Assembly (NCBI RefSeq): GCF_003233655.1
Contig: NZ_CP029830.1
Location: 670,501 to 734,500 of the forward strand
Length of the DNA stretch: 64,000 nucleotides
Direction of reading: 5' to 3'
Source: Azospirillum ramasamyi
GTDB lineage: Bacteria > Pseudomonadota > Alphaproteobacteria > Azospirillales > Azospirillaceae
Of this stretch, positions 37,587-51,328 are shown piece after piece. The first letter of the stretch is position 1. Each line of letters opens with the position of its first letter. The position numbers and the translations under genes are program-made. Under the pieces are notes generated by a model, which saw nothing but the letters and a program-made list of their open reading frames with translations, had not been told where the DNA came from and did no database searches.

Positions 37587-38561
37587 TCAGTCCCCGGCGG
37601 CGGGCGTTCCGAGCGAGTCGAGATACTGCTCCTCCCACTGGCGGCCGGCGTCCAGTTCGCCGAACAGCCATTGGCGGAACAGCCTGATCTTCGGCAGGTC
37701 GGCGGTCGATTTCAGCGTGACGAAGCCATGCCCCTGCGCCCGCAGGCCGCGGGTGGGGAAGGGGACGACCAGCTGGCCGGACTGAAGCTCCTGCCGGGCG
37801 AGAAGCAGGCTGTCCAGGCACACCCCCATGCCGTTCACCGCCGCGTTGATCGCCATGAAGGAGCGGTCGAAGCGCAGGCCGCGGTCCATGTCCAGCTGCA
37901 CGCCGCGATGTTTGCGCGCCCAGTCGCGCCAGCCCACGATGTTGATCTCCGAATGGATCAGGATGTGGCGGCTGAGATCCTTCGGCTCGCGGATCGGGAT
38001 CAGCCCGTTCGCCAGTGCCGGCGAGCACATCGGTACGATGACGTCCTCCGGGAACTGCTCCAGCATGCAGCCGGCCGGCGGCGGGCCGGGGTTGTAGCGA
38101 ATGTCCACGTCCACCGCGCCCGCCGTGAGGTCGATGGGCGAGACCGAGGCCCGCAGCCGGATGTCGATGGCGGGATGCAGGGCCTTCACCCGGTTCAGCC
38201 GCGGCATCAGCCATTGCGTGGCGAAGCTGGGCATCGAGCGGACGGTGAGGATCTCGGTGCCGCTGTTGGATGTGGTGACGTTGCGGATGGCGGTCTCCAT
38301 CCGGGCGAAGGCGCCGATGATCTCGGTGGCGAAACTGCGCCCGGCATCGGTCAACGCAACCGAACGGTGCACCCGATGAAACAGCGGCAAGCCAAGCTGT
38401 TCCTCCAGGATTTTCACCTGGTGGCTGATCGCCGACGGCGTCAGCCCGAGATCCTCCGCCGCAGTCGCGAAGGAACCCAGCCGCGCGGCAGCCTCGAACG
38501 CTTGCAAAGCCTTGATTGAAACCCGTTTCCGCATCGCGCCATTCAGATGAATTTGTTTCAT
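37587..38561 (-). CDS. LysR-family regulator (GcvA-like subgroup)
   Basis: A 324-residue LysR-type regulator. N-terminal HTH: ALQAFEAAARLGSFATAAED followed by LGLTPSAISHQVKILEEQLG; a type-2 periplasmic-binding fold follows. The WRDWARKHRG segment and general layout match GcvA-like members. Two starts are possible, 38561 and 38534 (MRKRVSIKAL); neither has a good ribosome site. It is divergent from the SDR-transketolase-TRAP operon, the normal arrangement for its activator, with a T-N11-A palindrome in between. Confidence 0.9.
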   Translation of the reverse strand: MKQIHLNGAMRKRVSIKALQAFEAAARLGSFATAAEDLGLTPSAISHQVKILEEQLGLPLFHRVHRSVALTDAGRSFATEIIGAFARMETAIRNVTTSNSGTEILTVRSMPSFATQWLMPRLNRVKALHPAIDIRLRASVSPIDLTAGAVDVDIRYNPGPPPAGCMLEQFPEDVIVPMCSPALANGLIPIREPKDLSRHILIHSEINIVGWRDWARKHRGVQLDMDRGLRFDRSFMAINAAVNGMGVCLDSLLLARQELQSGQLVVPFPTRGLRAQGHGFVTLKSTADLPKIRLFRQWLFGELDAGRQWEEQYLDSLGTPAAGD

Positions 38562-38575
38562 CGATGAGCAATCTT

Positions 38576-38590
38576 ATTCGTTTGTCGAAT
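38576..38590. promoter_or_regulatory. LysR-type operator (T-N11-A)
   Basis: ATTCG-TTTGT-CGAAT, a perfect 5-base inverted repeat containing T-N11-A, 15 bases upstream of the lysR start and about 150 bases before the SDR start. Likely recognition site for LysR autoregulation and activation. Confidence 0.55.
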
Positions 38591-38742
38591 TCATCTCAAG
38601 CCCATAGGATCACTTCAATCATCGGCTGGACGAATCATCTGCCGGCCGCAGCGAAATCACCACAACCGAGCGAAACCTGCGCTCCGTCGCGGCATCCACA
38701 GGGCCGCCACGGCGGAGCCTGCTTCGATAAAAGGGAGCGAGC

Positions 38743-39492
38743 ATGCTGCTGTCCAACAAGGTCTGCGTGATCACCGGCGCGGCGTCGCGCCGCGGCATCG
38801 GCCGGGCGACCGCGAGGCTTTTCGCGCTGCATGGCGGGCGCGCGATCATCCTGGACCTCGACGGCGCGCAGGCGGCCGAAGCCGCCGCCGAACTGGGCGA
38901 GGCGCATCGCGGCTTCGCCTGCGACGTGACCGACCGGGACGCCTGCTTCGCCGCCGCCAACCGCGTGGTGGAGGAGTTCGGCCGCATCGACGTGCTGGTC
39001 AACAACGCCGGCATCACCCAGCCGCTGAAGTTCATGGACATCGGCCCGAAGAACTACGAGGCGGTGACCGACGTCAGCCTGCGCGGCACGCTGTACATGA
39101 GCCAGGCGGTCGTTCCCCACATGCGCGAGCGCAAGTCCGGCTCCATCGTCTGCATTTCGTCCGTCTCGGCGCAGCGCGGCGGCGGCATCTTCGGCGGCCC
39201 GCACTACAGCGCGGCCAAGGCCGGCGTGCTGGGTCTCGCCAAGGCGATGGCGCGCGAACTGGGGTCGGACAATGTCCGCGTCAATTCGGTGACGCCCGGC
39301 CTGATCCAGACCGACATCACCGGCGGCAAGCTGACCGACGAGCTGCGGGCGGAAATCCTGAAGGGCATCCCGCTGAACCGCCTGGGCGACGCCGAGGATG
39401 TGGCCCGCTCCTGCCTGTTCCTGGCCTCGGAGCTGTCCTCCTACATCACCGGCGCCACGCTCGACGTCAACGGCGGCATGCTGATCCACTGA
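38743..39492 (+). CDS. Short-chain dehydrogenase/reductase
   Basis: A 249-residue classical SDR. NAD(P) motif CVITGAASRRGIGRATA (the T-G-x3-G-x-G box with two extra Arg), NNAG at LVNNAGITQ, catalytic Ser in CISSVSAQR, and Tyr/Lys in PHYSAAKAG. The C-terminus GATLDVNGGMLIH is typical of FabG-like sugar or polyol dehydrogenases. GGGAG precedes the ATG. First gene of the operon; it probably oxidises the imported polyol, sugar or sugar acid before the transketolase step. Confidence 0.92.
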   Translation: MLLSNKVCVITGAASRRGIGRATARLFALHGGRAIILDLDGAQAAEAAAELGEAHRGFACDVTDRDACFAAANRVVEEFGRIDVLVNNAGITQPLKFMDIGPKNYEAVTDVSLRGTLYMSQAVVPHMRERKSGSIVCISSVSAQRGGGIFGGPHYSAAKAGVLGLAKAMARELGSDNVRVNSVTPGLIQTDITGGKLTDELRAEILKGIPLNRLGDAEDVARSCLFLASELSSYITGATLDVNGGMLIH

Positions 39493-39517
39493 TCCCGAAA
39501 TGCTGGAGACACCCCCC

Positions 39518-40375
39518 GTGGACATCGCACTCGACACCACCCCGCTGGGGCACAATGTGCCGCTGGCCGAACGCGCCTACCGCATCCGCCGCAACGCCCT
39601 GCTGATGGGCGAGGTGCAGGGGCAGGGCTATATCGGCCAGGCCCTCGACATCGCCGACGTTCTGGCGGTCTCCTACTTCCACGCCATGACCTACCGGGCG
39701 GAAGACCCGCACTGGGAGGGGCGCGACCGCTTCCTGCTGTCCAACGGCCATTACGCCATCGCGCTCTACGCGGCATTGATCGAGGCCGGCATCATCCCGG
39801 CGGAGGAGCTGGAGACCTACGGCAGCGACGACAGCCGCCTGCCGATGTCGGGCATGGCCAGCTACACGCCGGGCATGGAGATGTCGGGCGGCTCGCTCGG
39901 CCTCGGCCTCGGCATCGCGGTCGGCATCGGGCTGGGCCTGAAGCGCAAGAACTCCGCCAGCCGCGTCTACACCCTGTTCTCCGACGGCGAACTGGACGAG
40001 GGGTCGGTGTGGGAGGCCATCATGTCGGCCGCCCATTACAAGCTCGACAACCTGATCGCCATCGTCGACGTCAACAACCAGCAGGCCGACGGCCCGTCCA
40101 CCCAGGTGATGGCCTTCGAGCCGCTGGTGGACAAGCTGGAAGCCTTCGGCTGGTTCGTCCAGCGGGTGGACGGCAACGACATGGACGCCGTGGTGGCCGC
40201 CTTCGACGCCGCCAAGTCGCACCCCGAGGCCAAGCCGCGGATGATCGTCTGCGACACCAAGATGGGCAAGGGCGTGCCCTTCCTCGAAGCCCGCGAAAAG
40301 AACCACTTCATCCGCGTCGACGCGCACGAATGGCAGCTGGCGCTGGACGCGCTCGACGCCGGGAGGACCGCATGA
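39518..40375 (+). CDS. Transketolase, N-terminal (TPP) subunit
   Basis: A 285-residue protein equal to the N-terminal half of transketolase. TPP/Mg motif: FSDGELDEGSVWEA to DVNNQQADG (GDG-N type, about residues 153-200). FLLSNGHYAIALYA near 75 and SGGSLGLGLGIAVGIGL near 130 are family marks. The GTG at 39518 has GGAG at optimum spacing; an ATG at 39500 is in frame without a site. The stop overlaps the start of the C-terminal half. Split transketolases of this kind act in special sugar pathways, for example apulose-4-phosphate transketolase. Confidence 0.9.
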   Translation: MDIALDTTPLGHNVPLAERAYRIRRNALLMGEVQGQGYIGQALDIADVLAVSYFHAMTYRAEDPHWEGRDRFLLSNGHYAIALYAALIEAGIIPAEELETYGSDDSRLPMSGMASYTPGMEMSGGSLGLGLGIAVGIGLGLKRKNSASRVYTLFSDGELDEGSVWEAIMSAAHYKLDNLIAIVDVNNQQADGPSTQVMAFEPLVDKLEAFGWFVQRVDGNDMDAVVAAFDAAKSHPEAKPRMIVCDTKMGKGVPFLEAREKNHFIRVDAHEWQLALDALDAGRTA

Positions 40376-41376
40376 GCACCGCTGCAAACACCACCGCAAA
40401 GCCGCGCCTGAAGACCTCCGCCATGATCGCCTCGATCGCGGCGGAAGGGCAGCGGACCAAGCCGGCCCCCTTCGGCCATGCGCTGGTCGAGCTGGCGAAG
40501 CAGCGGCCGGAGATCGTCGGCATGACCGCCGATCTCGCCAAATACACCGACCTGCACATCTTCGCCCAGGCCTATCCCGACCGCTTCTATCAGATGGGCA
40601 TGGCCGAACAGCTGCTGATGGGTGCGGCGTCGGGCATGGCGCATGAGGGCATGATGCCCTTCGTCACCACCTACGCCGTCTTCGCCTCGCGCCGGGCCTA
40701 CGATTTCGTCCACCAGACGATCGCGGAGGAGAACCGCAACGTCAAGATCGCCTGCGCCCTGCCGGGCCTGACGTCCGGCTACGGCCCCAGCCATCAGGCG
40801 GCGGAGGATCTGGCGCTGATGCGCGCCATGCCGAACATGGTGGTGATCGACCCCTGCGACGCCCACGAGATCGAGCAGGCGGTGCCGGCCATGGCCGCGC
40901 ATAACGGTCCGGTCTACATGCGGCTGCTGCGCGGCAACGTTCCGCTGGTGCTGGACGAGTACGACTACAAGTTCGAACTCGGCAAGGCCAAGCTGCTGCG
41001 CGACGGCGCCGAGGTTCTGGTGATCTCCTCCGGCATCATGACGATGCGGGCGCTGGAGGTGGCGCAGCGGCTGGAGGCCGACAAGGTCGGCGTCGCGGTG
41101 CTGCACGTCCCCACCATCAAGCCGCTCGATACCGAGACCATCCTGCGCGAAGCGGCGCGGACCGGCCGCATGGTGGTGGTGGCGGAAAACCACACCGTCA
41201 TCGGCGGGCTGGGCGAGGCGGTGGCCGGCACCCTGCTGCGCGCCGGCGTGGCCCCGGTCTTCCGTCAGATCGGTCTGCCCGACGAATTCCTGAAGGCCGG
41301 CGCCCTGCCGACCCTGCACGACCTCTATGGCATTTCCACCGACGCCATGGTGGCCAGCATCAAGGGCTGGCTCTAA
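40372..41376 (+). CDS. Transketolase, C-terminal subunit
   Basis: A 334-residue partner carrying the pyrimidine-binding and C-terminal transketolase domains. The conserved Glu that activates TPP lies in FYQMGMAEQLLMGAASGMAH; also ALPGLTSGYGPSHQAAEDLA and VVAENHTVIGGLGEAVA. GGGAGG upstream and an ATGA overlap with the N-terminal subunit indicate a stoichiometric complex. Specificity cannot be read out by eye. Confidence 0.9.
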   Translation: MSTAANTTAKPRLKTSAMIASIAAEGQRTKPAPFGHALVELAKQRPEIVGMTADLAKYTDLHIFAQAYPDRFYQMGMAEQLLMGAASGMAHEGMMPFVTTYAVFASRRAYDFVHQTIAEENRNVKIACALPGLTSGYGPSHQAAEDLALMRAMPNMVVIDPCDAHEIEQAVPAMAAHNGPVYMRLLRGNVPLVLDEYDYKFELGKAKLLRDGAEVLVISSGIMTMRALEVAQRLEADKVGVAVLHVPTIKPLDTETILREAARTGRMVVVAENHTVIGGLGEAVAGTLLRAGVAPVFRQIGLPDEFLKAGALPTLHDLYGISTDAMVASIKGWL

Positions 41377-41442
41377 GACGAACGTTCATCCGACCTGATC
41401 ACGCCTGATCAACCAACAAACGTCCATAGGGAGAGGAATCCG

Positions 41443-42426
41443 ATGAAGAAGCTGCTCTTGTCGCTGATGGTGGGAACCGCCCTGGTCGCATCGCCCGCCG
41501 CCTGGGCCCAGCAGGTCCTGCGTCTGGCCCACAACGCGGCTCCCGGCAACCCGAAGGCGGAAGCCTCGCTGAAGTTCGCGGAACTCGTCGCCCAGAAGAC
41601 GGACGGACGGGTGAAGGTCGAGGTCGGCGGCAGCGCCCAGTACGGCGACGACGTGGAGGCGCTGACCAGCATGCGCCTGGGCACGCTGGCCTTCAGCGCC
41701 AATTCGCAGGGCACCACCTCCGGCGTCGTGCCGGAATATGCCGTGCTGGGCCTGCCTTTCCTGTTCCAGTCGCTGCCGCAGGCCTGGAAGGTGCTGGACG
41801 GCCCGGTGGCGAAGAAGCTGGACGATGCGTCGAAGACCAAGGGTCTGGTGCTGCTGGCGATGTGGGACAACGGCATCCGCCACACCTCCAACAATGTCCA
41901 CCCGATCGCCAAGCCGGAGGATCTGGCGGGCGTGAAGATCCGCACCCCGCCGGATCCGATGACCGTGGACATCTTCAAGGCGCTGGGCGCCAACCCGACG
42001 CCGCTGGCCTTCTCCGAACTCTACATCGCGCTCCAGCAGGGCGTGGTCGACGGGCAGGAGAACCCGCTGATGAACATCCACTCCTCCAAGCTCTTCGAGG
42101 TGCAGAAATACATCTCGCTGACCGGCCACAAGTATGAGGCGACGCCGCTGCTGGCCAGCAAGATGGTGTTCGACACCCTGTCGAAGGCCGACCAGAAGGC
42201 GGTGCTGGAGGCGGCGGCGGAGGCCGGCAAGCTGAACCGCGAGATGTCCGCCAAGGCCGACCAGGAGCTGCGGTCGAAGATGGAGGACGCGGGCGTCAAG
42301 TTCAACACGGTCGATCCGGCGCCCTTCGTCGCCAAGACCAAGCCGGTCTACGACAAGTGGGAGAAGCAGTTCCCCGAGCTGGTGGCGCTGGTCCGCAAGG
42401 AGGCTGCGGCCGGGGCTGCGCCGTGA
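41443..42426 (+). CDS. dctP: TRAP transporter solute-binding protein (DctP family)
   Basis: A 327-residue periplasmic binding protein. Sec signal MKKLLLSLMVGTALVASPAA ending AWA-Q. The mature part begins QVLRLAHNAAPGNPKAEASL, with the anion-binding arginine in AGVKIRTPPDPMTVDIFKAL (about residue 168), and ALQQGVVDGQENPLMNI. This places it among DctP proteins binding carboxylates or sugar acids. First of dctPQM; the stop overlaps the dctQ start. Confidence 0.93.
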   Translation: MKKLLLSLMVGTALVASPAAWAQQVLRLAHNAAPGNPKAEASLKFAELVAQKTDGRVKVEVGGSAQYGDDVEALTSMRLGTLAFSANSQGTTSGVVPEYAVLGLPFLFQSLPQAWKVLDGPVAKKLDDASKTKGLVLLAMWDNGIRHTSNNVHPIAKPEDLAGVKIRTPPDPMTVDIFKALGANPTPLAFSELYIALQQGVVDGQENPLMNIHSSKLFEVQKYISLTGHKYEATPLLASKMVFDTLSKADQKAVLEAAAEAGKLNREMSAKADQELRSKMEDAGVKFNTVDPAPFVAKTKPVYDKWEKQFPELVALVRKEAAAGAAP

Positions 42427-42986
42427 TGGCGGTGTCCCACGACCGGGAGCATGGGGTGGCGGGATTTCCCGCCACCCTTCTCCAGGCGGCCGACGCCGCG
42501 ATCTTCGTCGCTGCCGCCGCCGTGTCGATCCTGTCGCTGGTCGTGCTGTTCCTGTCGCTGGGGGGCGAGGTCGTGGTCCGCTACCTGACCACCCAGGGAA
42601 TGGGCTGGCCGTCCGAGATGCCGAACCTGCTGTTCCCCTGGCTGGTGATGGGCGGCGTGGTCGTGGCGGCGCAGAAGGGCGCGCATATCTCGGTCACGCT
42701 GCTGCTCGACATGCTTCCGCGCAGGGCGTCGCGGGCGCTGCTGCTGGCGATGCAGCTCCTGGTCGCGGCGACTTTCTTCTATCTCGCCTATATCGGCCTC
42801 GCCGTCATCGAGATCACCGGCAGCGAGGTCTACCCGGTGACGGGCGTCAGCGCCCGCTGGGCCTATCTGGCGCTGATCGCCGGCTTCGTCGGGGTGGGGC
42901 TGACCGCCGTCACCACCTTCCTGCGCCTGCTGATCACCGAGGATCCGCGGTCCGTCCGCGCCCATGTGTCGGAGGAAGAGCTATGA
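42426..42986 (+). CDS. dctQ: TRAP transporter small permease (DctQ family)
   Basis: A 186-residue membrane protein with four hydrophobic helices. The DctQ signature region is EMPNLLFPWLVMGGVVVAAQ with KGAHISVTLLLDMLP. It overlaps dctP and dctM by one and four bases. It bridges DctP to DctM in the Na+-driven importer. Confidence 0.9.
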   Translation: MAVSHDREHGVAGFPATLLQAADAAIFVAAAAVSILSLVVLFLSLGGEVVVRYLTTQGMGWPSEMPNLLFPWLVMGGVVVAAQKGAHISVTLLLDMLPRRASRALLLAMQLLVAATFFYLAYIGLAVIEITGSEVYPVTGVSARWAYLALIAGFVGVGLTAVTTFLRLLITEDPRSVRAHVSEEEL

Positions 42987-44242
42987 CCGTCGTGATGGTC
43001 GCCGTCTTCGCCGTTCTTCTGCTTCTCTCATTCCCCGTCGGCTATGCGCTGGTCATCAGTTCGGGGGCCGCCGTGATGACGATGGGCTCCGTCCCTTCCG
43101 TCATCGCGGTCATCAAGCTGTTCCAGCCGACCCAGAGCTTCCCGCTGCTGGCGATCCCGTTCTTCATCCTGTCCGGCGCGCTGATGATGAGCGGCACGCT
43201 GGGCCAGAAGCTGGTTCGCTTCGCCGCGGCGCTGGTCGGGCGCTTCCACGGCGGGCTGGCGCAGGTCACCGTCGTCGGCTCCACCATCTTCGGCGGCGTG
43301 TCCGGCTCCGCCGTGGCCGAGGCGTCGGCGCTCGGCTCCATGCTGATCCCCTGGCAGAAGCGCGAGGGCTATCCTGCGGCGTTCGGCGCCGCGGCGACCG
43401 CCTCGTCGTCGGTGATCGCCGGGCTGATCCCGCCGTCGATCCCGCTGATCCTCTATGCCGCGGTGTCGAACGCCTCCATCGCCTCGCTGTTCCTCGCCGG
43501 CATCCTGCCGGGCCTGATGCTGGCCGGCGGCATGATGGTCGTCTGCTATGTCAGCGGCCGCATGCGCAATTTCCCCCTGCTGAAGAGCGAGGGCGGTCTG
43601 CGGGCGCTGGGGATGGCAACCGTCACGGCGCTGCCGGCGCTGCTGATGCCGGCCTTCATCCTGGTGCTGCTGCGCTTCGGCATCGCCACCCCGACCGAGG
43701 TCAGCGTCATCGCCGTCGCCTACGCCCTGCTGGTCAGCGTGCTGATCTACCGCGACCTGACGGTGAAGCGCATCTATGCCGCGCTGCTGGCCACGGTGGT
43801 GACCACGGGCGTGGTCATGCTGGTCATCGCCGCCTCGAACCTCGTCGGCTATGTGCTGATCACCGAAGCGATCCCGAACGCGGTCGCCTCTTACGCCGAA
43901 AGCGTGCTGAAGGAGCCGTGGCTGATCATCCTGGCGATGAACCTGATCATGCTGGTGGTGGGCATGTTCCTCGACCTGCCGGCGGCGATCCTGCTGCTGG
44001 GCCCCACCTTCGTCGCCGTCGGCGGCGCCATCGGCATGGACCCGATCCAGCTCGGCATCATGATGGCCGTCAATCTCAGCATCGGCCTGTTCACCCCGCC
44101 CATCGGCACCACCCTGTTCATCTCCGCCGCCATTTCCCGCGAGCCCATCGGCGCCATCGTGCGCGAGCTGTGGCCCTTCTATCTGGTGGCGCTGACGGTG
44201 CTGGGGCTGGTGTCCTACGTGCCGGCGACGATCCTGTACTGA
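42983..44242 (+). CDS. dctM: TRAP transporter large permease (DctM family)
   Basis: A 419-residue integral membrane subunit with about 12 hydrophobic segments. Family segments: FPLLAIPFFILSGALMMSGT, STIFGGVSGSAVAEASALGS, AGLIPPSIPLILYA, and MDPIQLGIMMAVNLSIGLFT-PPIG. Length standard. Forms the Na+/substrate channel with DctQ. Confidence 0.94.
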   Translation: MTVVMVAVFAVLLLLSFPVGYALVISSGAAVMTMGSVPSVIAVIKLFQPTQSFPLLAIPFFILSGALMMSGTLGQKLVRFAAALVGRFHGGLAQVTVVGSTIFGGVSGSAVAEASALGSMLIPWQKREGYPAAFGAAATASSSVIAGLIPPSIPLILYAAVSNASIASLFLAGILPGLMLAGGMMVVCYVSGRMRNFPLLKSEGGLRALGMATVTALPALLMPAFILVLLRFGIATPTEVSVIAVAYALLVSVLIYRDLTVKRIYAALLATVVTTGVVMLVIAASNLVGYVLITEAIPNAVASYAESVLKEPWLIILAMNLIMLVVGMFLDLPAAILLLGPTFVAVGGAIGMDPIQLGIMMAVNLSIGLFTPPIGTTLFISAAISREPIGAIVRELWPFYLVALTVLGLVSYVPATILY

Positions 44243-44276
44243 TCCGGCAGCACCTCTATCCAAGGACGTTCATACG

Positions 44277-45164
44277 ATGACGACAGTCGGTTTCATCGGC
44301 CTCGGCTCCATGGGCATGCCGATGGCGCGCAATCTGCTGGCGAAGGGGTTCAAGGTCCGGGGCTTCGACGTGCGGACGGAGAGCGTCCGGGCGCTGGAAG
44401 GCGCGGGCGGAACGGGCGCCTCCAGTGCCGCCGCCGCGGCGGCGGGGGCGGATGCGCTGGTCCTGATGGTGGTGAATGCCGCCCAGGCCGACGCCGCCCT
44501 CTTCGCCGACGGCGCGCTGGAGGCCCTGCCGGCCGGCGCGTCGGTGATCCTGATGGCGACCTGCCCGCCGGGCGCGGTCGCCGCCCTGGCGGAGCGGGTG
44601 GAGGCGGAGGGCCGCCGCTTCGTCGACGCTCCCGTCTCCGGCGGGGTGGTGGGCGCCGTCGCCGGCACGCTGTCGATCATGGCGGCGGCTCCGGCGGAGA
44701 CGGTGGAGCGGGTGCGCCCGGTCCTGGCCGCCATGGGCGACAAGGTGTTCCATGTCGGCGGGACGCCGGGGCAGGGCGCCACGGTGAAGACCGTCAACCA
44801 GCTGCTGTGCGGCGTCCACATCGCCGTGGTGGCGGAGGCATTCGCGCTGGCCGCCAAGGTCGGCGTGGATCTGAAGGTCCTGCTGGAGATCATGAGCGGG
44901 TCGTCGGCATCGAGCTGGATGCTGAAGGACCGCGGTCCCCGCATGCTGGAGGCGGAGCCGGACATCACCAGCGCCGTCGACATCTTCGTCAAGGATCTCG
45001 GCATCGTGCTGGAGGCCGGGCGCGACGCCAAGGCGGCCCTGCCGCTGGCCGCCGTCGCCCACCAGATGTTCCTGGCGACCTCCGGGCGCGGCGAGGGGAC
45101 GATGGACGACAGCCAGGTGATCCGCAGCTATCACGCGGTCAACGGTACGCCCCTGCCGCGCTGA
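44277..45164 (+). CDS. Beta-hydroxyacid dehydrogenase (HIBADH/L-threonate dehydrogenase-like)
   Basis: A 295-residue NAD(P)-dependent dehydrogenase of the 3-hydroxyisobutyrate family. Nucleotide motif VGFIGLGSMGMPMARNLL, substrate motif FVDAPVSGGVVGAVAGTLSI (the DAPVSGG box), and catalytic Lys in GATVKTVNQLLCG. It resembles LtnD-type L-threonate and 2-hydroxymethylglutarate dehydrogenases. Last gene of the SDR-transketolase-TRAP operon; it implies that the imported compound or an intermediate is a 3-hydroxy acid. A terminator follows. Confidence 0.9.
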   Translation: MTTVGFIGLGSMGMPMARNLLAKGFKVRGFDVRTESVRALEGAGGTGASSAAAAAAGADALVLMVVNAAQADAALFADGALEALPAGASVILMATCPPGAVAALAERVEAEGRRFVDAPVSGGVVGAVAGTLSIMAAAPAETVERVRPVLAAMGDKVFHVGGTPGQGATVKTVNQLLCGVHIAVVAEAFALAAKVGVDLKVLLEIMSGSSASSWMLKDRGPRMLEAEPDITSAVDIFVKDLGIVLEAGRDAKAALPLAAVAHQMFLATSGRGEGTMDDSQVIRSYHAVNGTPLPR

Positions 45165-45175
45165 ACCAAAAGGGT

Positions 45176-45201
45176 CCGGGAGCCTCGTCTCAGGCTCCCG
45201 G
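45176..45201. terminator. Bidirectional terminator between converging operons
   Basis: Perfect 10-base stem CCGGGAGCCT/AGGCTCCCGG, loop CGTCTC, preceded by AAAAGGG. The stop codon of the leuD-like gene lies in the loop. It ends both the plus-strand TRAP operon and the minus-strand 13-gene operon. Confidence 0.75.
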
Positions 45202-45786
45202 CACCACCCAGGGCCGGGCCTCGGCGTCGGCCCGGTCGAAGGCGTCGATGGCATCCTGATGGCGCAGGGTCAGCGCCACGTCGTCCAGGCCTTCGACGAG
45301 ACATTCCTTCTTGAACGGGTCGATGGCGAAGGACAGCGCCCGCCCGTCCGGGCCGGTCAGGGTCTGGGCCGGCAGGTCCACAATGACCTCGGCTCCCGGA
45401 GCCTCCTGCAATTGGCGGCGCAGCGCCGCCGCCGCATCCTCCGGCAGGATGATGGTGAGCAGGCCGTTCTTGGCGGCGTTGGCGGCGAAGATGTCGCCGA
45501 AGCTGGGGGCGACGACGCAGCGGAAGCCGCCGTCCACCAGCGCATAGACCGCCCCTTCCCGCGAGGATCCGCAGCCGAAATTGCGGTCGGTCACCAGGAC
45601 GCGGGCGCCGGCATAGGCCGGGTCGTCCAGCGGGAAACCCGGCTTGCGCTCGTCATGGAACAGGAAGTTGCCGTAGCCGGCGCTACGCGGCTTCTTCAGG
45701 AAGCGGGCGGGCAGCAGCTGGTCGGTGTCGATGTTGGCGATGTCGAGCGGCACCGCCGGCGCGGTCAGCGTGACGAAGGGTTCCAT
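45190..45786 (-). CDS. LeuD-like hydro-lyase, small subunit
   Basis: A 198-residue aconitase-superfamily swivel domain. ANIDTDQLLPARFLKK and FGCGSSREGAVYAL are the LeuD signatures. Paired with the LeuC-like gene upstream (2-base gap). It forms an iron-sulfur hydratase or isomerase. Its place at the end of a transport-catabolic operon, rather than with leuB, suggests a dicarboxylate such as citraconate or dimethylmaleate rather than isopropylmalate. Leucine biosynthesis cannot be excluded. Confidence 0.9.
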   Translation of the reverse strand: MEPFVTLTAPAVPLDIANIDTDQLLPARFLKKPRSAGYGNFLFHDERKPGFPLDDPAYAGARVLVTDRNFGCGSSREGAVYALVDGGFRCVVAPSFGDIFAANAAKNGLLTIILPEDAAAALRRQLQEAPGAEVIVDLPAQTLTGPDGRALSFAIDPFKKECLVEGLDDVALTLRHQDAIDAFDRADAEARPWVVPGA

Positions 45787-45787
45787 T

Positions 45788-47194
45788 CTACGACGCTCCC
45801 AGCTTGCGGACATCGGTGAGCCGCCCGGTCGCGGCGGCGGCGGCGGCCATCGCCGGGCTCATCAGGTGGGTGCGGGCGTTCGGCCCCTGGCGGCCGGGGA
45901 AGTTGCGGTTGGTGGTAGAGGCGCAGCGCTCCCCCGCCGGAACGAGATCGCCGTTGATGCCCACGCACATGGAGCAGCCCGGCTCCCCCCATTCCAGACC
46001 GGCGTCGATGAACACGCGGTCCAACCCCTCCGCCTCGGCCTGCCGGCGGACCGGGACCGATCCCGGCACCACCAGACCCGGCACCACGGCGCGCCGGCCG
46101 CGCAGCACCGCGGCGGCGCCGCGCAGATCCTCCAAACGGGCGTTGGTGCAGGAGCCGATGAAGACGCGGTCGATCGCCACATCCTCCAGCGCCATGCCGG
46201 GGGCGAGGCCCATGTAATCCAGCATCTTGCGCATCTGGCCGGCACGCACCGGGTCGGCCTCGGCAGCGGGATCGGGAACCGCCGCCGTCACCGGAACCGC
46301 CGTCTCCGGGCTGGTGCCCCAGGTCACGGCCGGGGCGATGGCGGCGGCGTCCAGCGTCACCTCGCGGTCGAAGACGGCGCCCGCGTCGCTGGCCAGGGTC
46401 CGCCAATGCGCCACCGCCCGGTCGAGCAGCGCGCCCTTGGGCGCGTAATGCCGCCCCTCGATCCAGGCGAAGGTGGTGTCGTCGGGGGCGATCATGCCGG
46501 CCCGCGCGCCCGCCTCGATCGACATGTTGCAGACGGTCAGGCGGCCTTCCATCGACAGGGCGCGGATGGCGCTGCCGGCATACTCGATGACATGGCCGGC
46601 GGCACCGTCGGCGCCGATGGCGGCGATCACCGCCAGGATCAGATCCTTGGCCGTCACATGCGGCCCCAAAACCCCGTCCACGGTGATGCGCATGGTCCTG
46701 GGCCGGCGCTGCCACAGCGTCTGCGTCGCCAGCACATGCGACACCTCGGTCGCCCCGATGCCGAAGGCCAGCGCGCCGAAGGCGCCATGGGTGGAGGTGT
46801 GGCTGTCGCCGCAGACGATGGTCAGGCCGGGCAGGGTCAAGCCCTGTTCCGGCGCCAGCACATGGACGATGCCCTGCGCCGGATCGTGCAGGCCGAAATG
46901 GCGCAGGCCGTGGCGGCCGGCATTCGCCTCCAGCATCGTCACCATGTTGGCGATCTCGGGGTCGGCGATCGGCTTCGCCCGGCTGTGCGACGGCACGTAA
47001 TGGTCGGCGACGGCGAAGGTCAGTTCCGGCCGGCGGACCTTGCGGCCGGCATGGTCGATCATGCCGAAGGCGTGGAAGGAGCCCTCGTGCAGGAAATGAC
47101 GGTCGATGGCGAGCAGGGCCTGACCGTCGGGCCGGGTCGCCACGACATGGGCGTCCCAGACCTTCTCGAACAGGCTGCGTGGCTGCGATGTCAT
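45788..47194 (-). CDS. LeuC-like hydro-lyase, large subunit
   Basis: A 468-residue large subunit with a 4Fe-4S cluster. Seen: [32 protein letters not shown], cluster cysteines in [16 protein letters not shown] and [11 protein letters not shown], and a C-terminal NRNFPGRQG. Length as LeuC. Substrate residues do not let me separate isopropylmalate isomerase from dimethylmaleate/citraconate hydratase. The start overlaps the end of the flavoprotein gene by 4 bases. Confidence 0.9.
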
Positions 47195-48600
47195 CGGCTG
47201 GTTTCCTCCCTTGCGGCGCTTGCGGCGGCTGAACCGGCGATGCGCCCGAGCGCCACCGCGGTCAGCAGGCCGTTGCCGGACAGATAGCCGGACGCCTTGG
47301 ATCCCGAGACGCCGCAGGCGGCGCCGCCGGCGGCATAGAGGTTGGGCAGCGGCGCGCCGCTGCCGTCCAGAACGCGCGCGTCGTCATCGACGACCAGCCC
47401 GCCCTGGGTGTGGAACAGGGCGCCGGTGACGCGGACGGCGCGGTAGGGCGGCGCCAGCGGGGCCGAACCGGCGAAGCTGCGGCCGAAGCCGTCGCTTCCG
47501 CCCTCCGTCTTCAGCCGGTCGGTGTCGGCCAGCGTGGCGGCGAGGGCGTCGGCGTCGATCCTCATCTGCCGGGCAAGTTCCGCGGGGGTGTCGGCGGTCA
47601 GCACCGCGCCCATCGCCTCGGCCTGCCGGAAATCCTCGAACTGGCGGGCGATGGCGGCGATCCGTTCGTCGAACACGGTCCAGGCGATGCCGTCGGGCTG
47701 GCGCAGCACGAGCGCGGCCTGTTCCGAATAGCCCTGCGCCTCGTTGGAGAAGCGCCGGCCCCCGGTGTTCACCTGCACGCCGCCCTCGGTGATCGTCGCC
47801 CAGGTGACGAGGATGCCGGCGGGATGGGCGACGGAACCGTGGCCCTGATGCCCCGACAGATGCCGGGTTGCGGCACCCAGCGCCTCGCCCCACAGCAGCG
47901 CGTCGCCCTGGTTGCCGGGATGGCCGAAATAGAGCGCGTCGGCCAGCTCCGGCACATGCCGCTCGACCAGCGCCCTGTTGCCGCCATAGCCGTTGCAGGC
48001 GAGGACCAGCGCAGCGCAGCCGACCGGCTCGACGCTGCCGTCGGGGCGGGTGATCTCCACGCCGCGGACCAGAGGCCCATCGGCATAGAGCGCGGTGACG
48101 TGGGCCTCGCACAGCACGTCGATGCCGGATTCCTCCACCGCACCGCGCAGGCGGTCGATCAGTTCGGCGCCCGAGCGGCTGGGCAGCCCGTGCATGCGCC
48201 GGGCGCCGTGTCCCGGATAGCTGAAATTGTCCACCACCGAGAAGGGCAGGCCGTAGCGGTCGGCCAGCCATTCCAGCGCCGGTCCGACGGCCTGGGTGAC
48301 GCGGGCGACCGCTGCCGGGTCCGGTTCGCCCTTCGCCTTGGCCACGATGTCGGCGGCGAAGCGTTCCGGGCTGTCCTCGATCCCGGCATCGCGCTGCCAG
48401 CGGGTGCCCGGCGCCGGGATCAGCCCGGCCGACAGGGCGGTGGAGCCCTGGGGCAGCGCGTCGCGCTCCAGCACCAGCACGCCGGCGCCCCGCTCGTGGG
48501 CGGCCAGCGCCGCGACCATGCCGGCGGCCCCGCCGCCGATCACCAGGACGGGAACCGTGACCCCGAACTCCACGCCGTCGGCGGGCAGGATGCGGCTCAT
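47191..48600 (-). CDS. FAD-dependent oxidoreductase (fumarate reductase/ketosteroid dehydrogenase-like)
   Basis: A 469-residue flavoprotein. FAD motif [20 protein letters not shown] with the distal Glu (LVLERD), and a C-terminal FAD contact in [20 protein letters not shown]. The middle, capping-type domain and [16 protein letters not shown] resemble the succinate dehydrogenase/fumarate reductase flavoprotein superfamily, enzymes that add or remove hydrogen across an activated C-C bond. No export signal. Couples by 4-base overlaps to genes on both sides. I infer reduction or desaturation of an unsaturated acid or imide in the pathway. Confidence 0.88.
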
Positions 48601-49211
48601 GGGGGCGCCTCCTCCTCCAGCATCGCGGCGACCGTCGCCACGCGGCAGACCGGGCGCAGGGCGGCGACGGAGACCTCATGCACCTCGCGGCTGAAGGCGG
48701 CGCAGCCGTCCTCCAGCAGGATGGTGTCGAACTCCCGGACATGGGCGTCGCGCACGGTCGAGGCGACGCCGCCGTTGGTGACGATGCCGCAGACCAGCAG
48801 CCGCTCCACCCCGCATTTCCGCAGCACCCATTCCAGCCGCGACATGTAGAAGGCGGAATAGGCGACCTTCTCCACCTCGACATCGACCGGCTGCAGCGCG
48901 TCCACCGTGCGGTGCCCCCAGCTTCCGGGCCGGAAATCGCCCTTGGCGAGGAAGGGGCGCAGCGTCTTCAGATGGGGGGAGATCATCGGCTCGCCGCCGC
49001 GGCCGGGCACCAGGGTGAAGTTGGTGGAGATCACCCAGCCGCCGCGAGAGCGCAGCCGGTCGGCCAGCGGCTTCACCCGCTCCGGCAGCGCCAGGATCTC
49101 CGGCGCGGTCTGCCCGGCGCGGCCATAGGCGCCTTCCGGGTGGATGAAGTCGTTCTGCAGGTCGCAGACCAGCAGGGCGGTGCGTTCGATGGGAATCGCG
49201 GTGCCGCTCAT
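48597..49211 (-). CDS. Isochorismatase-like hydrolase lacking the nucleophilic Cys
   Basis: A 204-residue isochorismatase-fold protein. The catalytic Asp is in LLVCDLQNDFIHPEGAYG and the Lys in VEKVAYSAFYMSRLEW. The nucleophile motif, usually T-N-x-C-V-x-x-T, reads VTNGGVASTVRDA, so Cys is Gly. That substitution is known in true isochorismatases (PhzD, EntB) and in YecD-type proteins, so amidase chemistry by Cys is unlikely. AAAGGAG precedes the ATG. It sits between hyuA and the flavoprotein gene with 4-base overlaps. Confidence 0.88.
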   Translation of the reverse strand: MSGTAIPIERTALLVCDLQNDFIHPEGAYGRAGQTAPEILALPERVKPLADRLRSRGGWVISTNFTLVPGRGGEPMISPHLKTLRPFLAKGDFRPGSWGHRTVDALQPVDVEVEKVAYSAFYMSRLEWVLRKCGVERLLVCGIVTNGGVASTVRDAHVREFDTILLEDGCAAFSREVHEVSVAALRPVCRVATVAAMLEEEAPP

Positions 49212-51328
49212 CGGGCGCTCCTTTCCACGATGACGTTGCCGAAGCCGTCGACGCGGGCGCTGAGGTCGGGATCGATGACGGTGGTGGCGTCCGGCTGCTC
49301 CAGGATCGCCGGACCCTGGATGACGGCGCCGACCGGCAGGTCGAGGCGGTTGTAGACGGCGGTCTCGTGCCAGGCCCCGTCGAACCACACCGGGCGTGAG
49401 CCGGCATGGGCGCCCTCCATCGTCGTGCCCGCCGCGGGGGCCAGGGCCGAGAGGTCGAAATGCGGGCGGCGGCCGATGGCGGCGGTGCGCAGGTTGACGA
49501 TCTTGGCGCCGACGCCCGGCAGCAGCCGGCTGAAGGAGGCCTGATAGGCGCGCTCGAAGGCGGCGCGGATGGTGGCCTCGTCGATCCCGGTAGTGGGCCC
49601 GGTGGTGGGCCCGGCCGTGCCGTTTTCGACCGACACCGGCAGCGGCACGGCGACCGTGTGGGTCTGGCCGATGTAGTGCATGTCGAGTTCGAAGACGAGG
49701 TCGATGCGCTCGACGCTGAGGCCGGCGGATTCCACCACGGCGCGGGCGGATGCCGCTTCCTCCACCATGCGGCGGTCGAGCGATCCGGCGTCGATCCCCG
49801 CCAGCGGCAGGTTCAGCGTCTGCACCTGATCGTGGCGGATGTCGGCGATGACGCAGCCGAGCGCCGAGGTCACGCCGGGGAAGCGCGGCACCAGCGCCGC
49901 CTTCAACCCGACCTCCTTGATCAGCGCGCCGACATGCAGCGCGCCGCCGCCGCCGAAGGGCACGGCGGCGAATTTGGCCGGGTCGTGGCCGCGCTCGATG
50001 GAGACGAGGCGGATGGCGCCGGCCATCTTGCTGTTGGCGATGCGCACCACCGCTTCCGCCGCCGCCATGACGTCGATGCCGAGCGGTTCGGCGACATGGG
50101 TGGCGATCGCCTTGCGGGCGGCGTCGACGTCCAGCCGCGCCAGTTTGCCGCCGATGGGACGCTCCGCATTGATGCGGCCGAGCAGCACGTTGGCGTCGGT
50201 CAGGGTCGGGCGGGTGTTGCCCTGGCCGTAGCAGACCGGCCCCGGCCGCGAGCCGGCGCTCTCCGGCCCGACCTGCAGCATGCCGCCGGGATCCACCCCG
50301 GCGATGGAGCCGCCGCCGGCGCCGATTGTGGTGATCTCGATCATCGGCGTGCGGACGACCAGCCCGAAATCGATGGTGGTCTGGGCGGCCAGCATGGTCT
50401 GCCCCTCCACCACCAGCGACACGTCGAAGCTGGTGCCGCCGAGGTCGCCGGTGATGACGTTGGGGAAGCCCGCCGCCTTGGCGATCGCCGCCGCGGCGAT
50501 GACGCCCGCCGCCGGCCCCGACAGGGCGGTGCGCACCGGCAGGCGCCGGGCGGTGTCGGTGGACATCACGCCGCCGTTCGACTGCACGATGTGGAAGCGT
50601 CCGCCGAAGCCCTCCCCGGCCAGCGCGTTGTCGAGCTTGGCGAGATAGCTGCCGACAACCGGCTGGAGATAGGCGTTCAGCGCGGTGGTGGAGGTGCGCT
50701 CGAACTCGCGGATTTCCGGCAGGATGCGGGAGGAGCATTCCAGGTTGGCGTTCGGCCAGACCTCGTGCGCCGCCTCCAGCGCCGCCAGCTCGTTGGCCGG
50801 GTTGGCGTAGGCGTTGATGAAGACGATGGCGAGCGCCTCCGCCCCCTGTTCGGCCAGCCGGCGGGCGCAAGCGCGAACCTCCTCCGGGTCGATTGCGGTG
50901 CGGACGGTGCCGTCGGCCAGCGTGCGCTCCGCCACCTCCAGACGCATGTCGCGGTCGACCACGGGGACGAAATCGCCCCACAGGCCCCAGGTGTGGCGGC
51001 GGTCGCGGCGGCGCATCTCCAGCACGTCGCGGAAGCCGGCGGTGGTGATCAGGCCGACCTTGGCGCCCTTGCGCTCCAGAAGCGCGTTGGTGCCGACGGT
51101 GGTGCCGTGGACGATGGAGCCCAGTTCTGCGACCGGGCCGAAGCTCTGCAGCCCGGCGAGGAAGCCGACCGCCTCGTCGCCGCGGTTGGAGGGAACCTTG
51201 GCGGTGCGGAAGCTGCCGCGCGCCTCGTCGTAATGGAACAGGTCGGTGAAGGTGCCGCCGACATCGACGCCGACGATAGCGCCCTTGGCGGCACCCTTGG
51301 CGGCACCCGTGGAAATACCGTTGCTCAT
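49208..51328 (-). CDS. hyuA: Hydantoinase/oxoprolinase subunit A
   Basis: A 706-residue HyuA-family subunit. ATP-grasp/actin-like nucleotide motif AIVGVDVGGTFTDLFHY, VHGTTVGTNALLERKG, TALSGPAAGVIAAAAIA, and GDLGGTSFDVSLVVEG. With HyuB it performs ATP-dependent ring opening of 5-oxoproline, N-methylhydantoin, caprolactam, or carboxylation of ketones in relatives. The N-terminus has a GAAKGAAKGA repeat from a 12-base duplication, absent in most homologues. hyuB is 20 bases upstream. Confidence 0.93.
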   Translation of the reverse strand: MSNGISTGAAKGAAKGAIVGVDVGGTFTDLFHYDEARGSFRTAKVPSNRGDEAVGFLAGLQSFGPVAELGSIVHGTTVGTNALLERKGAKVGLITTAGFRDVLEMRRRDRRHTWGLWGDFVPVVDRDMRLEVAERTLADGTVRTAIDPEEVRACARRLAEQGAEALAIVFINAYANPANELAALEAAHEVWPNANLECSSRILPEIREFERTSTTALNAYLQPVVGSYLAKLDNALAGEGFGGRFHIVQSNGGVMSTDTARRLPVRTALSGPAAGVIAAAAIAKAAGFPNVITGDLGGTSFDVSLVVEGQTMLAAQTTIDFGLVVRTPMIEITTIGAGGGSIAGVDPGGMLQVGPESAGSRPGPVCYGQGNTRPTLTDANVLLGRINAERPIGGKLARLDVDAARKAIATHVAEPLGIDVMAAAEAVVRIANSKMAGAIRLVSIERGHDPAKFAAVPFGGGGALHVGALIKEVGLKAALVPRFPGVTSALGCVIADIRHDQVQTLNLPLAGIDAGSLDRRMVEEAASARAVVESAGLSVERIDLVFELDMHYIGQTHTVAVPLPVSVENGTAGPTTGPTTGIDEATIRAAFERAYQASFSRLLPGVGAKIVNLRTAAIGRRPHFDLSALAPAAGTTMEGAHAGSRPVWFDGAWHETAVYNRLDLPVGAVIQGPAILEQPDATTVIDPDLSARVDGFGNVIVERSAR

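Follow-up and report, generated by a model that had tools for sequence, protein, structure and literature searches.

A conserved operon around a remodelled split transketolase in Azospirillum ramasamyi, possibly for the import and breakdown of a sugar acid

What is a transketolase in two pieces doing beside a TRAP (tripartite ATP-independent periplasmic) transporter and two dehydrogenases? The question is raised by positions 38743-45164 of a 64,000-nucleotide stretch of DNA from Azospirillum ramasamyi, a bacterium of soil and plants (assembly GCF_003233655.1, contig NZ_CP029830.1, positions 670,501 to 734,500 of the forward strand; hereafter the window), where seven collinear, tightly packed genes encode a short-chain dehydrogenase/reductase (SDR), the halves TktN and TktC of a split transketolase (together TktNC) that binds thiamine diphosphate (ThDP), the transporter proteins DctP, DctQ and DctM, and a dehydrogenase of the 3-hydroxyisobutyrate dehydrogenase (HIBDH or HIBADH) type. 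A sequence-only reading of this DNA had proposed such an operon, and all seven genes are indeed there, every protein matching its family with best Pfam E-values between 2.2e-23 and 9.4e-119. Judged by its residues, the split enzyme differs from ordinary transketolases in having a rebuilt substrate pocket, and the conserved catabolic system around it is real. That the operon is inducible and serves the import and breakdown of a sugar acid is the answer that we favour, tentatively. The rebuilt pocket hints at a distinct sugar-breaking pathway, and our literature search listed no description of the system among open-licence PubMed Central (PMC) papers.

The pocket was compared across 128 loci, namely 8 annotated plasmid loci, the best 80 of 551 confirmed loci, and 40 further genome loci, which by identity form two groups, one of at least 64% and one of at most 55%; the 119 loci of the 128 with a TktC at least 60% identical form the ortholog set. 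Because the loci overlap in origin (L117 and L158, for example) and were picked by similarity, locus counts are not independent. Residues were mapped onto E. coli TktA by MAFFT, with hhalign as a second alignment, and a row was kept if it held more than 220 query residues for TktN (117 of the 119 loci and the window, giving 118 rows) or more than 290 for TktC (119 loci and the window, giving 120). In all 118 TktN rows H26 is replaced by Tyr (Y44) and H100 by Ser (S117), and H66 and H261 are kept in every ortholog row. All 120 TktC rows read Gly-Tyr at E468-D469 (Y137 for D469), have lost R358 and H461, and retain the catalytic Glu E411 (E79), H473 and R520 (R187). S385 is represented by Tyr58 in 9 of 9 sequences and in the ortholog rows of a wider split-transketolase alignment; the position is a gap in the MAFFT alignment of ortholog rows, and the Tyr call rests on that wider alignment and on hhalign, which gives the same pairs for H26, H100, S385 and D469. 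TktNC therefore has the ThDP fold, catalytic Glu (E411), H66, H261 and H473 of a transketolase, but neither the H26/H100 donor site of the pentose-phosphate enzyme (EC 2.2.1.1) nor its phosphate-site motif RSFHR and D469, and TktN and TktC reach just 21.5 and 204.7 bits against the DXS model TIGR00204 (cut-off 465.95). With H26, H100, D469 and S385 replaced, the pocket is unlike that for ordinary sugar phosphates, which agrees with the special role that the sequence-only reading had assigned to the enzyme.

Splitting does not account for this change, because 12 other split transketolases retain H26, H66 and H100. The housekeeping transketolase of the genome keeps all 13 positions checked. In a TktC tree of 41 rows the enzymes with Tyr26 form one clade (support 98/96), which encloses the Ser100 group (100/97); the orthologs of the window enzyme group together at 100/100. 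L195, L204 and L206 also have Tyr26; the clade further holds L190-L192, the TktN of which is unscored, and the H26/H100 tally leaves out L190, L192 and L203, for which no TktN was captured, and L191, which was misaligned. The best PDB match of both halves is the transketolase of entries 6yak/6yaj, split in the same way. That enzyme, however, keeps the donor-site His (PMC7661550) and the RSFHR motif (PMC11659671), and the window enzyme has neither.

In E. coli transketolase the changes H26Y (88% R) and D469Y (68% R) each flip the selectivity from S to R with propionaldehyde (PMC3657141), and a Tyr at position 385 would collide with the phosphate group when a sugar phosphate is the substrate (PMC5073344). 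By analogy with this distant homologue, the double Tyr at 26 and 469 suggests inverted stereochemistry. The substituted positions are those that engineers have mutated to obtain an R-selective transketolase or one for unphosphorylated substrates, and such a biocatalyst may exist in nature.

Relatives of the enzyme stand in other surroundings. The sister split ThDP enzyme encoded at L204 (8050-12356, minus strand), in which H26 is replaced by Tyr and H100 by Ile, directly adjoins methylthioribose-1-phosphate isomerase (MtnA) and methylthioribose kinase (MtnK), both above their NCBIfam cut-offs, an arrangement that possibly reflects a transketolase-like step in methionine salvage. At L147 (3900-10455) genes resembling the methylamine-dehydrogenase heavy chain and mauD lie between the halves of a split transketolase about 48% identical, and the remote (50-55%) Ser100 split transketolases of L144, L145, L179 and L180 adjoin a galactonate-dehydratase-like MR_MLE cluster (from a scan of L145).

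The neighbourhood of the split transketolase was surveyed in the 119 ortholog loci within 9 kb, by GC3-weighted gene calling and by direct tblastn, from which the counts are taken with analyst-set cut-offs of 30-50% identity, depending on the family, and 55% coverage; these cut-offs missed a dihydroxyacetone-kinase (DAK)-type gene of L177 that clustering found. An SDR at least 50% identical is present in 111 of the 119 loci and a LysR match in 109. The transporters differ: a fused TRAP system (39/119), a major facilitator superfamily (MFS) protein (33/119), a three-gene TRAP system (28/119) or an ATPase of an Rbs-type ATP-binding cassette (ABC) transporter (9/119). That unrelated transporters replace one another while the SDR-TktN-TktC core stays the same argues for a single class of substrate. 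Other neighbours are a full-length transketolase, here called Tkt* (34/119), a D-2-hydroxyacid dehydrogenase (29), HIBDH (27), glycerate 2-kinase (7), and lactonases of the amidohydrolase (5) and SGL (5) types; L151 and L152 show the order SDR-TktN-TktC-DctP-DctQM-D-2-hydroxyacid dehydrogenase-glycerate 2-kinase. The genes for D-2-hydroxyacid dehydrogenase and glycerate 2-kinase, in a minority of loci, indicate a C3 acid as product, and a PDB search with the dehydrogenase indicated no specific substrate. DAK-family, RpiB and AP_endonuc_2 TIM-barrel proteins occur in three loci each; in L078 and L139 an orthologous TktNC shares one operon with a DAK-family protein, an RpiB/erythrulose-4-phosphate-isomerase-like protein and an AP_endonuc_2 TIM barrel, which hints at an erythrulose branch (family scans of L078).

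The genome also carries two DUF4147 glycerate-kinase genes, on contigs C5 and C4. The one on C4 belongs to a second module, unlinked to TktNC, in which a LysR gene stands beside SDR2, Tkt*, D-2-hydroxyacid dehydrogenase and glycerate 2-kinase. SDR2 is 69% identical to the window SDR, and the other three products are 74% (Tkt*), 61% (dehydrogenase) and 49% (kinase) identical to those of the linked operons. Genome G019 has the whole module on another contig than TktNC, and G037 has LysR, Tkt* and D-2-hydroxyacid dehydrogenase on another contig, with no SDR or kinase match in the stretch taken. Among 82 genomes of the order, Tkt* (at least 60% identity) is found in 18, all of them among the 37 with TktC (match at E≤1e-60) and none among the 45 without; 19 have TktNC alone, and 45 have neither (Fisher p 3e-8, with no correction for phylogeny). 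The two genes share a contig in 15 of these 18 genomes, no more than about 8 kb apart, and are therefore counted as one inherited unit. Tkt* keeps H26, H100 and H473 in 35 of 35 rows (L005 and L213 being one gene), and in all of them D469 is Asn, S385 is Pro or Ala and R358 is replaced, with Lys or Arg at E468 in 30; by these substitutions Tkt* too seems to have departed from the pentose-phosphate role.

What the transporter brings in is probably an acid, although no particular one is indicated. The residues R146, R167 and N207 of DctP, which correspond to the Arg/Arg/Asn carboxylate clamp described for TRAP solute-binding proteins (PMC11668362), are invariant in 19 of 19 aligned DctPs, the window included, and support the acidic ligand proposed earlier. 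The AlphaFold2 model of DctP (mean pLDDT 90.2) gives VIA Z scores of up to 42.3, the matches listed being all TRAP solute-binding proteins and nearly tied, among them the sugar-acid binder 7bbr/7bco; 4p47 and 7bbr are among its nearest sequences.

The route that we favour, still short of confidence, is one for a non-phosphorylated polyhydroxy (sugar) acid, with a C5 aldonate, or the lactone of one, as the likeliest substrate. The TRAP transporter would import the acid, and the SDR, predicted to be NAD-linked and proposed as a sugar-acid dehydrogenase, would oxidise it to a keto-acid such as a 4-keto-pentonate. TktNC, with reversed or altered stereochemistry, would break the C-C bond beside the ketone, yielding a C3 acid (tartronate semialdehyde or hydroxypyruvate) and a C2 unit handed to an aldehyde acceptor; Tkt* would carry out an accompanying ketol transfer, perhaps with the other epimer, and a reductase would yield D-glycerate, to be phosphorylated by glycerate 2-kinase. 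For the LtnD-like dehydrogenase of the window (the HIBDH-type enzyme) the substrate is probably a 2-hydroxy acid that occurs in this pathway. This route draws on gene content and its conservation, on the swapping of transporters, the acid clamp, the remodelled ThDP pocket and the second module, and among the candidate acids a C5 one best explains the glycerate end found in the linked operons. The sequence-only reading had seen no sugar kinase in the cluster, correctly according to family scans of the window operon, and had proposed a kinase-free route; this holds up to the C-C bond step, before which the cluster has no kinase, but phosphorylation looks late, at glycerate, rather than absent, given the linked glycerate 2-kinases and the second module.

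Precedents for such chemistry exist. A mutant transketolase, E. coli TktA, splits a keto-aldonate in the manner proposed here, cleaving 5-keto-gluconate to tartaric semialdehyde (PMC12016104, PMC11066805), although it is an engineered single-chain enzyme and the window holds a natural operon; the transketolase of Thermotoga maritima takes uronic acids as acceptors (PMC8317047). The operon could provide an example from nature of a transketolase that cleaves keto-aldonates, which is an open step between vitamin C and tartrate (PMC11066805). It is a rather doubtful further step to see in TktNC a transketolase that nature has inverted in its stereochemistry and that acts on non-phosphorylated keto-sugar acids; together with an S-type Tkt* it would allow both of two epimeric acids to be cleaved in a single pathway, with late phosphorylation to D-glycerate. 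If true, a keto-aldonate transketolase pathway would exist in nature, and the Tyr26 superclade would be one of ThDP enzymes with new donor chemistry.

Several observations weigh against the favoured route. The SDR is the sole sought enzyme in 65 of the 119 loci (HIBDH, D-2-hydroxyacid dehydrogenase, Tkt*, glycerate 2-kinase and DAK were also sought), so the glycerate end is visible in a minority. Eight loci have no SDR, four of which (L053 of Klebsiella, L054 of Pantoea, L171 and L123) carry a HIBDH-type enzyme instead; seven of the eight show other parts of the system and L166 none, and L110 and L134 have little upstream sequence. The loop of S117 has pLDDT below 50 in the monomer model, so that the placement of this residue rests on sequence alignment. 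A change of H100 to Phe or Leu lets transketolase accept pyruvate (PMC7661550, PMC10787763), and with Ser at this position in every ortholog row TktNC may use a donor other than a ketol. The window HIBDH, considered as a tartronate-semialdehyde reductase, is weakened in that role by its place in a tree on the YgbJ/LtnD side and not with GarR/GlxR (the tool warned of long branches). Finally, tetronate, hexonate and branched substrates are less likely candidates.

That dehydrogenase leads to the tetronate alternative, which we consider unlikely: the SDR would oxidise L-threonate or D-erythronate at C3, forming 3-oxo-tetronate, TktNC would free glyoxylate and pass on a C2 unit, and the LtnD-like enzyme would handle L-threonate. 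The dehydrogenase is 40% identical to YgbJ and 31-34% to GarR, GlxR and YihU, and LtnD is its nearest relative by model score as well as by tree, although the score stays below the cut-off of 350 (Table 1). It thus resembles the dehydrogenase of the L-threonate/D-erythronate pathway (LtnD-OtnI-OtnK-OtnC; E. coli YgbJKLM), but no match to PF07005 (DUF1537/SBD_N) was found in the whole genome, which speaks against an OtnK-type threonate route, and the window operon has no such aldolase or isomerase. The missing OtnK-type kinase suits a tetronate split by TktNC; the lack of any isomerase family in the operon does not, and the glycerate 2-kinase and D-2-hydroxyacid dehydrogenase near the core in some loci suit a C3 product better. 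Three PDB entries, 4p9k, 4pdh and 4pdd, are presumably TRAP solute-binding proteins holding erythronate. TRAP solute-binding proteins with bound pantoate or erythronate are described together with 4P47 and 7BBR (PMC11668362), which are near DctP.

A hexonate is improbable in our view. Here the SDR would make 5-keto-gluconate or an epimer, and TktNC would cut between C4 and C5 to give tartaric semialdehyde and a C2 unit, as proposed for tartrate synthesis in grape. The engineered enzyme above is a precedent, one MFS partner scanned is nearest to the D-galactonate transporter model (327.2 bits, cut-off 395), and the lactonases would fit; the C4 semialdehyde, however, is left without a dedicated enzyme, and the glycerate kinase is unexplained.

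Comparably improbable is a TktNC that transfers no ketol at all, using instead a donor without terminal hydroxyl, whether a 2-oxo acid or another acyloin, as DXS and the engineered transketolases do. The donor is bound by H66, H100, G114 and H473, and DXPS has Phe at 100 (PMC7661550, PMC10787763). Transfer of a two-carbon unit by TktNC is our inference, and it meets a Ser at the donor-recognising H100 position throughout; the sister clade has Ile there (L204 and L206), and the one neighbourhood of it examined, L204, holds MtnK and MtnA. Ser can, however, still bond a hydroxyl, H66, H261 and H473 are kept, and no gene of the window operon obviously supplies a 2-oxo acid, except possibly that of the LtnD-like enzyme.

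Least probable of the substrates is a branched C5 acid of the apionate type, in which a 3-oxo-isoapionate-like ketol would be cut and hydroxypyruvate released directly for the D-2-hydroxyacid dehydrogenase to reduce, making TktNC functional kin of AptAB. This would explain that dehydrogenase and the glycerate kinase, the lactonases and the Rbs-type ABC transporter, but the oxidoisomerase that it would need was recognised among none of the identified neighbours. AptAB, the apulose-4-phosphate transketolase, is likewise split and serves sugar catabolism, but its substrate is a sugar phosphate that a kinase supplies; the window operon, where we searched, has neither sugar kinase nor apiose isomerase, and among L187-L206, with neighbours scanned for some loci, no split transketolase was identified as AptAB-like.

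The sulfonated substrate that had also been suggested is disfavoured and a sulfo-transketolase rejected on motif: SqwGH, the 6-deoxy-6-sulfofructose transketolase of the sulfo-transketolase pathway, is also split, acts on a non-phosphorylated ketol and needs no early kinase (PMC11659671), but it has RAFDR (RSFHR in the S. stipitis and C. hydrogenoformans enzymes; PMC11659671) where the window enzyme has (A/P)-Y-Y-(A/L)-R, and neither sulfoquinovose isomerase nor sulfoerythrulose isomerase is among the families of the window operon, to which this search was confined. Import of a plain C4-dicarboxylate beside a housekeeping-type transketolase is disfavoured by the pocket and by the co-occurrence with Tkt*.

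Operons of this type are widespread among Proteobacteria, and many of the bacteria that carry them were isolated from soil or plants. Apart from the order, TktC matches occur in 14 of 385 genomes of the class (E≤1e-70) and 29 of 398 of the phylum (E≤1e-60); in the class of G572, 105 of 369 genomes have some match at E≤1e-40, mostly in open frames fitting full-length enzymes, and just two matches reach 75% identity. Matches at E≤1e-50 are present in 222 plasmid records, the commonest hosts being Pantoea (49), Rhizobium (39), Bradyrhizobium (15), Paraburkholderia (11) and Caballeronia (10), and in the annotated plasmid records examined the product is called just transketolase.

The spacing of the genes is that of a compact operon: 7 bp separate SDR from TktN, 66 bp TktC from DctP and 34 bp DctM from the dehydrogenase, and overlaps of 4, 1 and 4 bp join TktN/TktC, DctP/DctQ and DctQ/DctM, the DctQ start being an ATG picked by the analyst. 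The LysR regulator and operator claimed earlier fared unequally. The regulator is there, divergent and just upstream of the seven genes, but the operator is only a candidate, a single imperfect 12-nt inverted repeat (92%, 34-nt gap; arms 38542-38553 and 38588-38599) with its left arm inside the start of the LysR gene.

Table 1. Features of the operon and its upstream region, in window coordinates.
Feature	Coordinates	Strand	Support
SDR dehydrogenase	38743..39492	+	Pfam PF13561 E 1.9e-68
TktN, ThDP-binding half of split transketolase	39500..40375	+	PF00456 1.7e-37; 6yak 3.8e-61
TktC, Pyr + C-terminal half	40372..41376	+	PF02779 2.1e-35, PF02780 1.9e-25; 6yaj 3.9e-71
DctP, TRAP solute-binding protein	41443..42426	+	TIGR00787 291.8 bits; Pfam E 6.4e-85
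DctQ, TRAP small permease	42426..42986	+	PF04290 2.2e-23
DctM, TRAP large permease	42983..44242	+	TIGR00786 396 bits; Pfam E 9.4e-119
HIBADH-type beta-hydroxyacid dehydrogenase, nearest LtnD (L-threonate dehydrogenase)	44277..45164	+	NF043037 310.6 bits; NAD_binding_2/NAD_binding_11
GcvA-type LysR regulator, divergent	37587..38561	-	NCBIfam GcvA 282.3 bits vs cut-off 288
Candidate operator, inverted repeat TTCAGATGAATT / AATTCATCTCAA	38542..38599	.	12-nt inverted repeat, 92%, 34-nt gap

Downstream, at 45190-51328 on the minus strand, lies a convergent cluster with a LeuC/LeuD-type isomerase pair, a separate catabolic unit in which open reading frames resembling a flavoprotein oxidoreductase, an isochorismatase-type hydrolase and hydantoinase/oxoprolinase A were recognised by eye.

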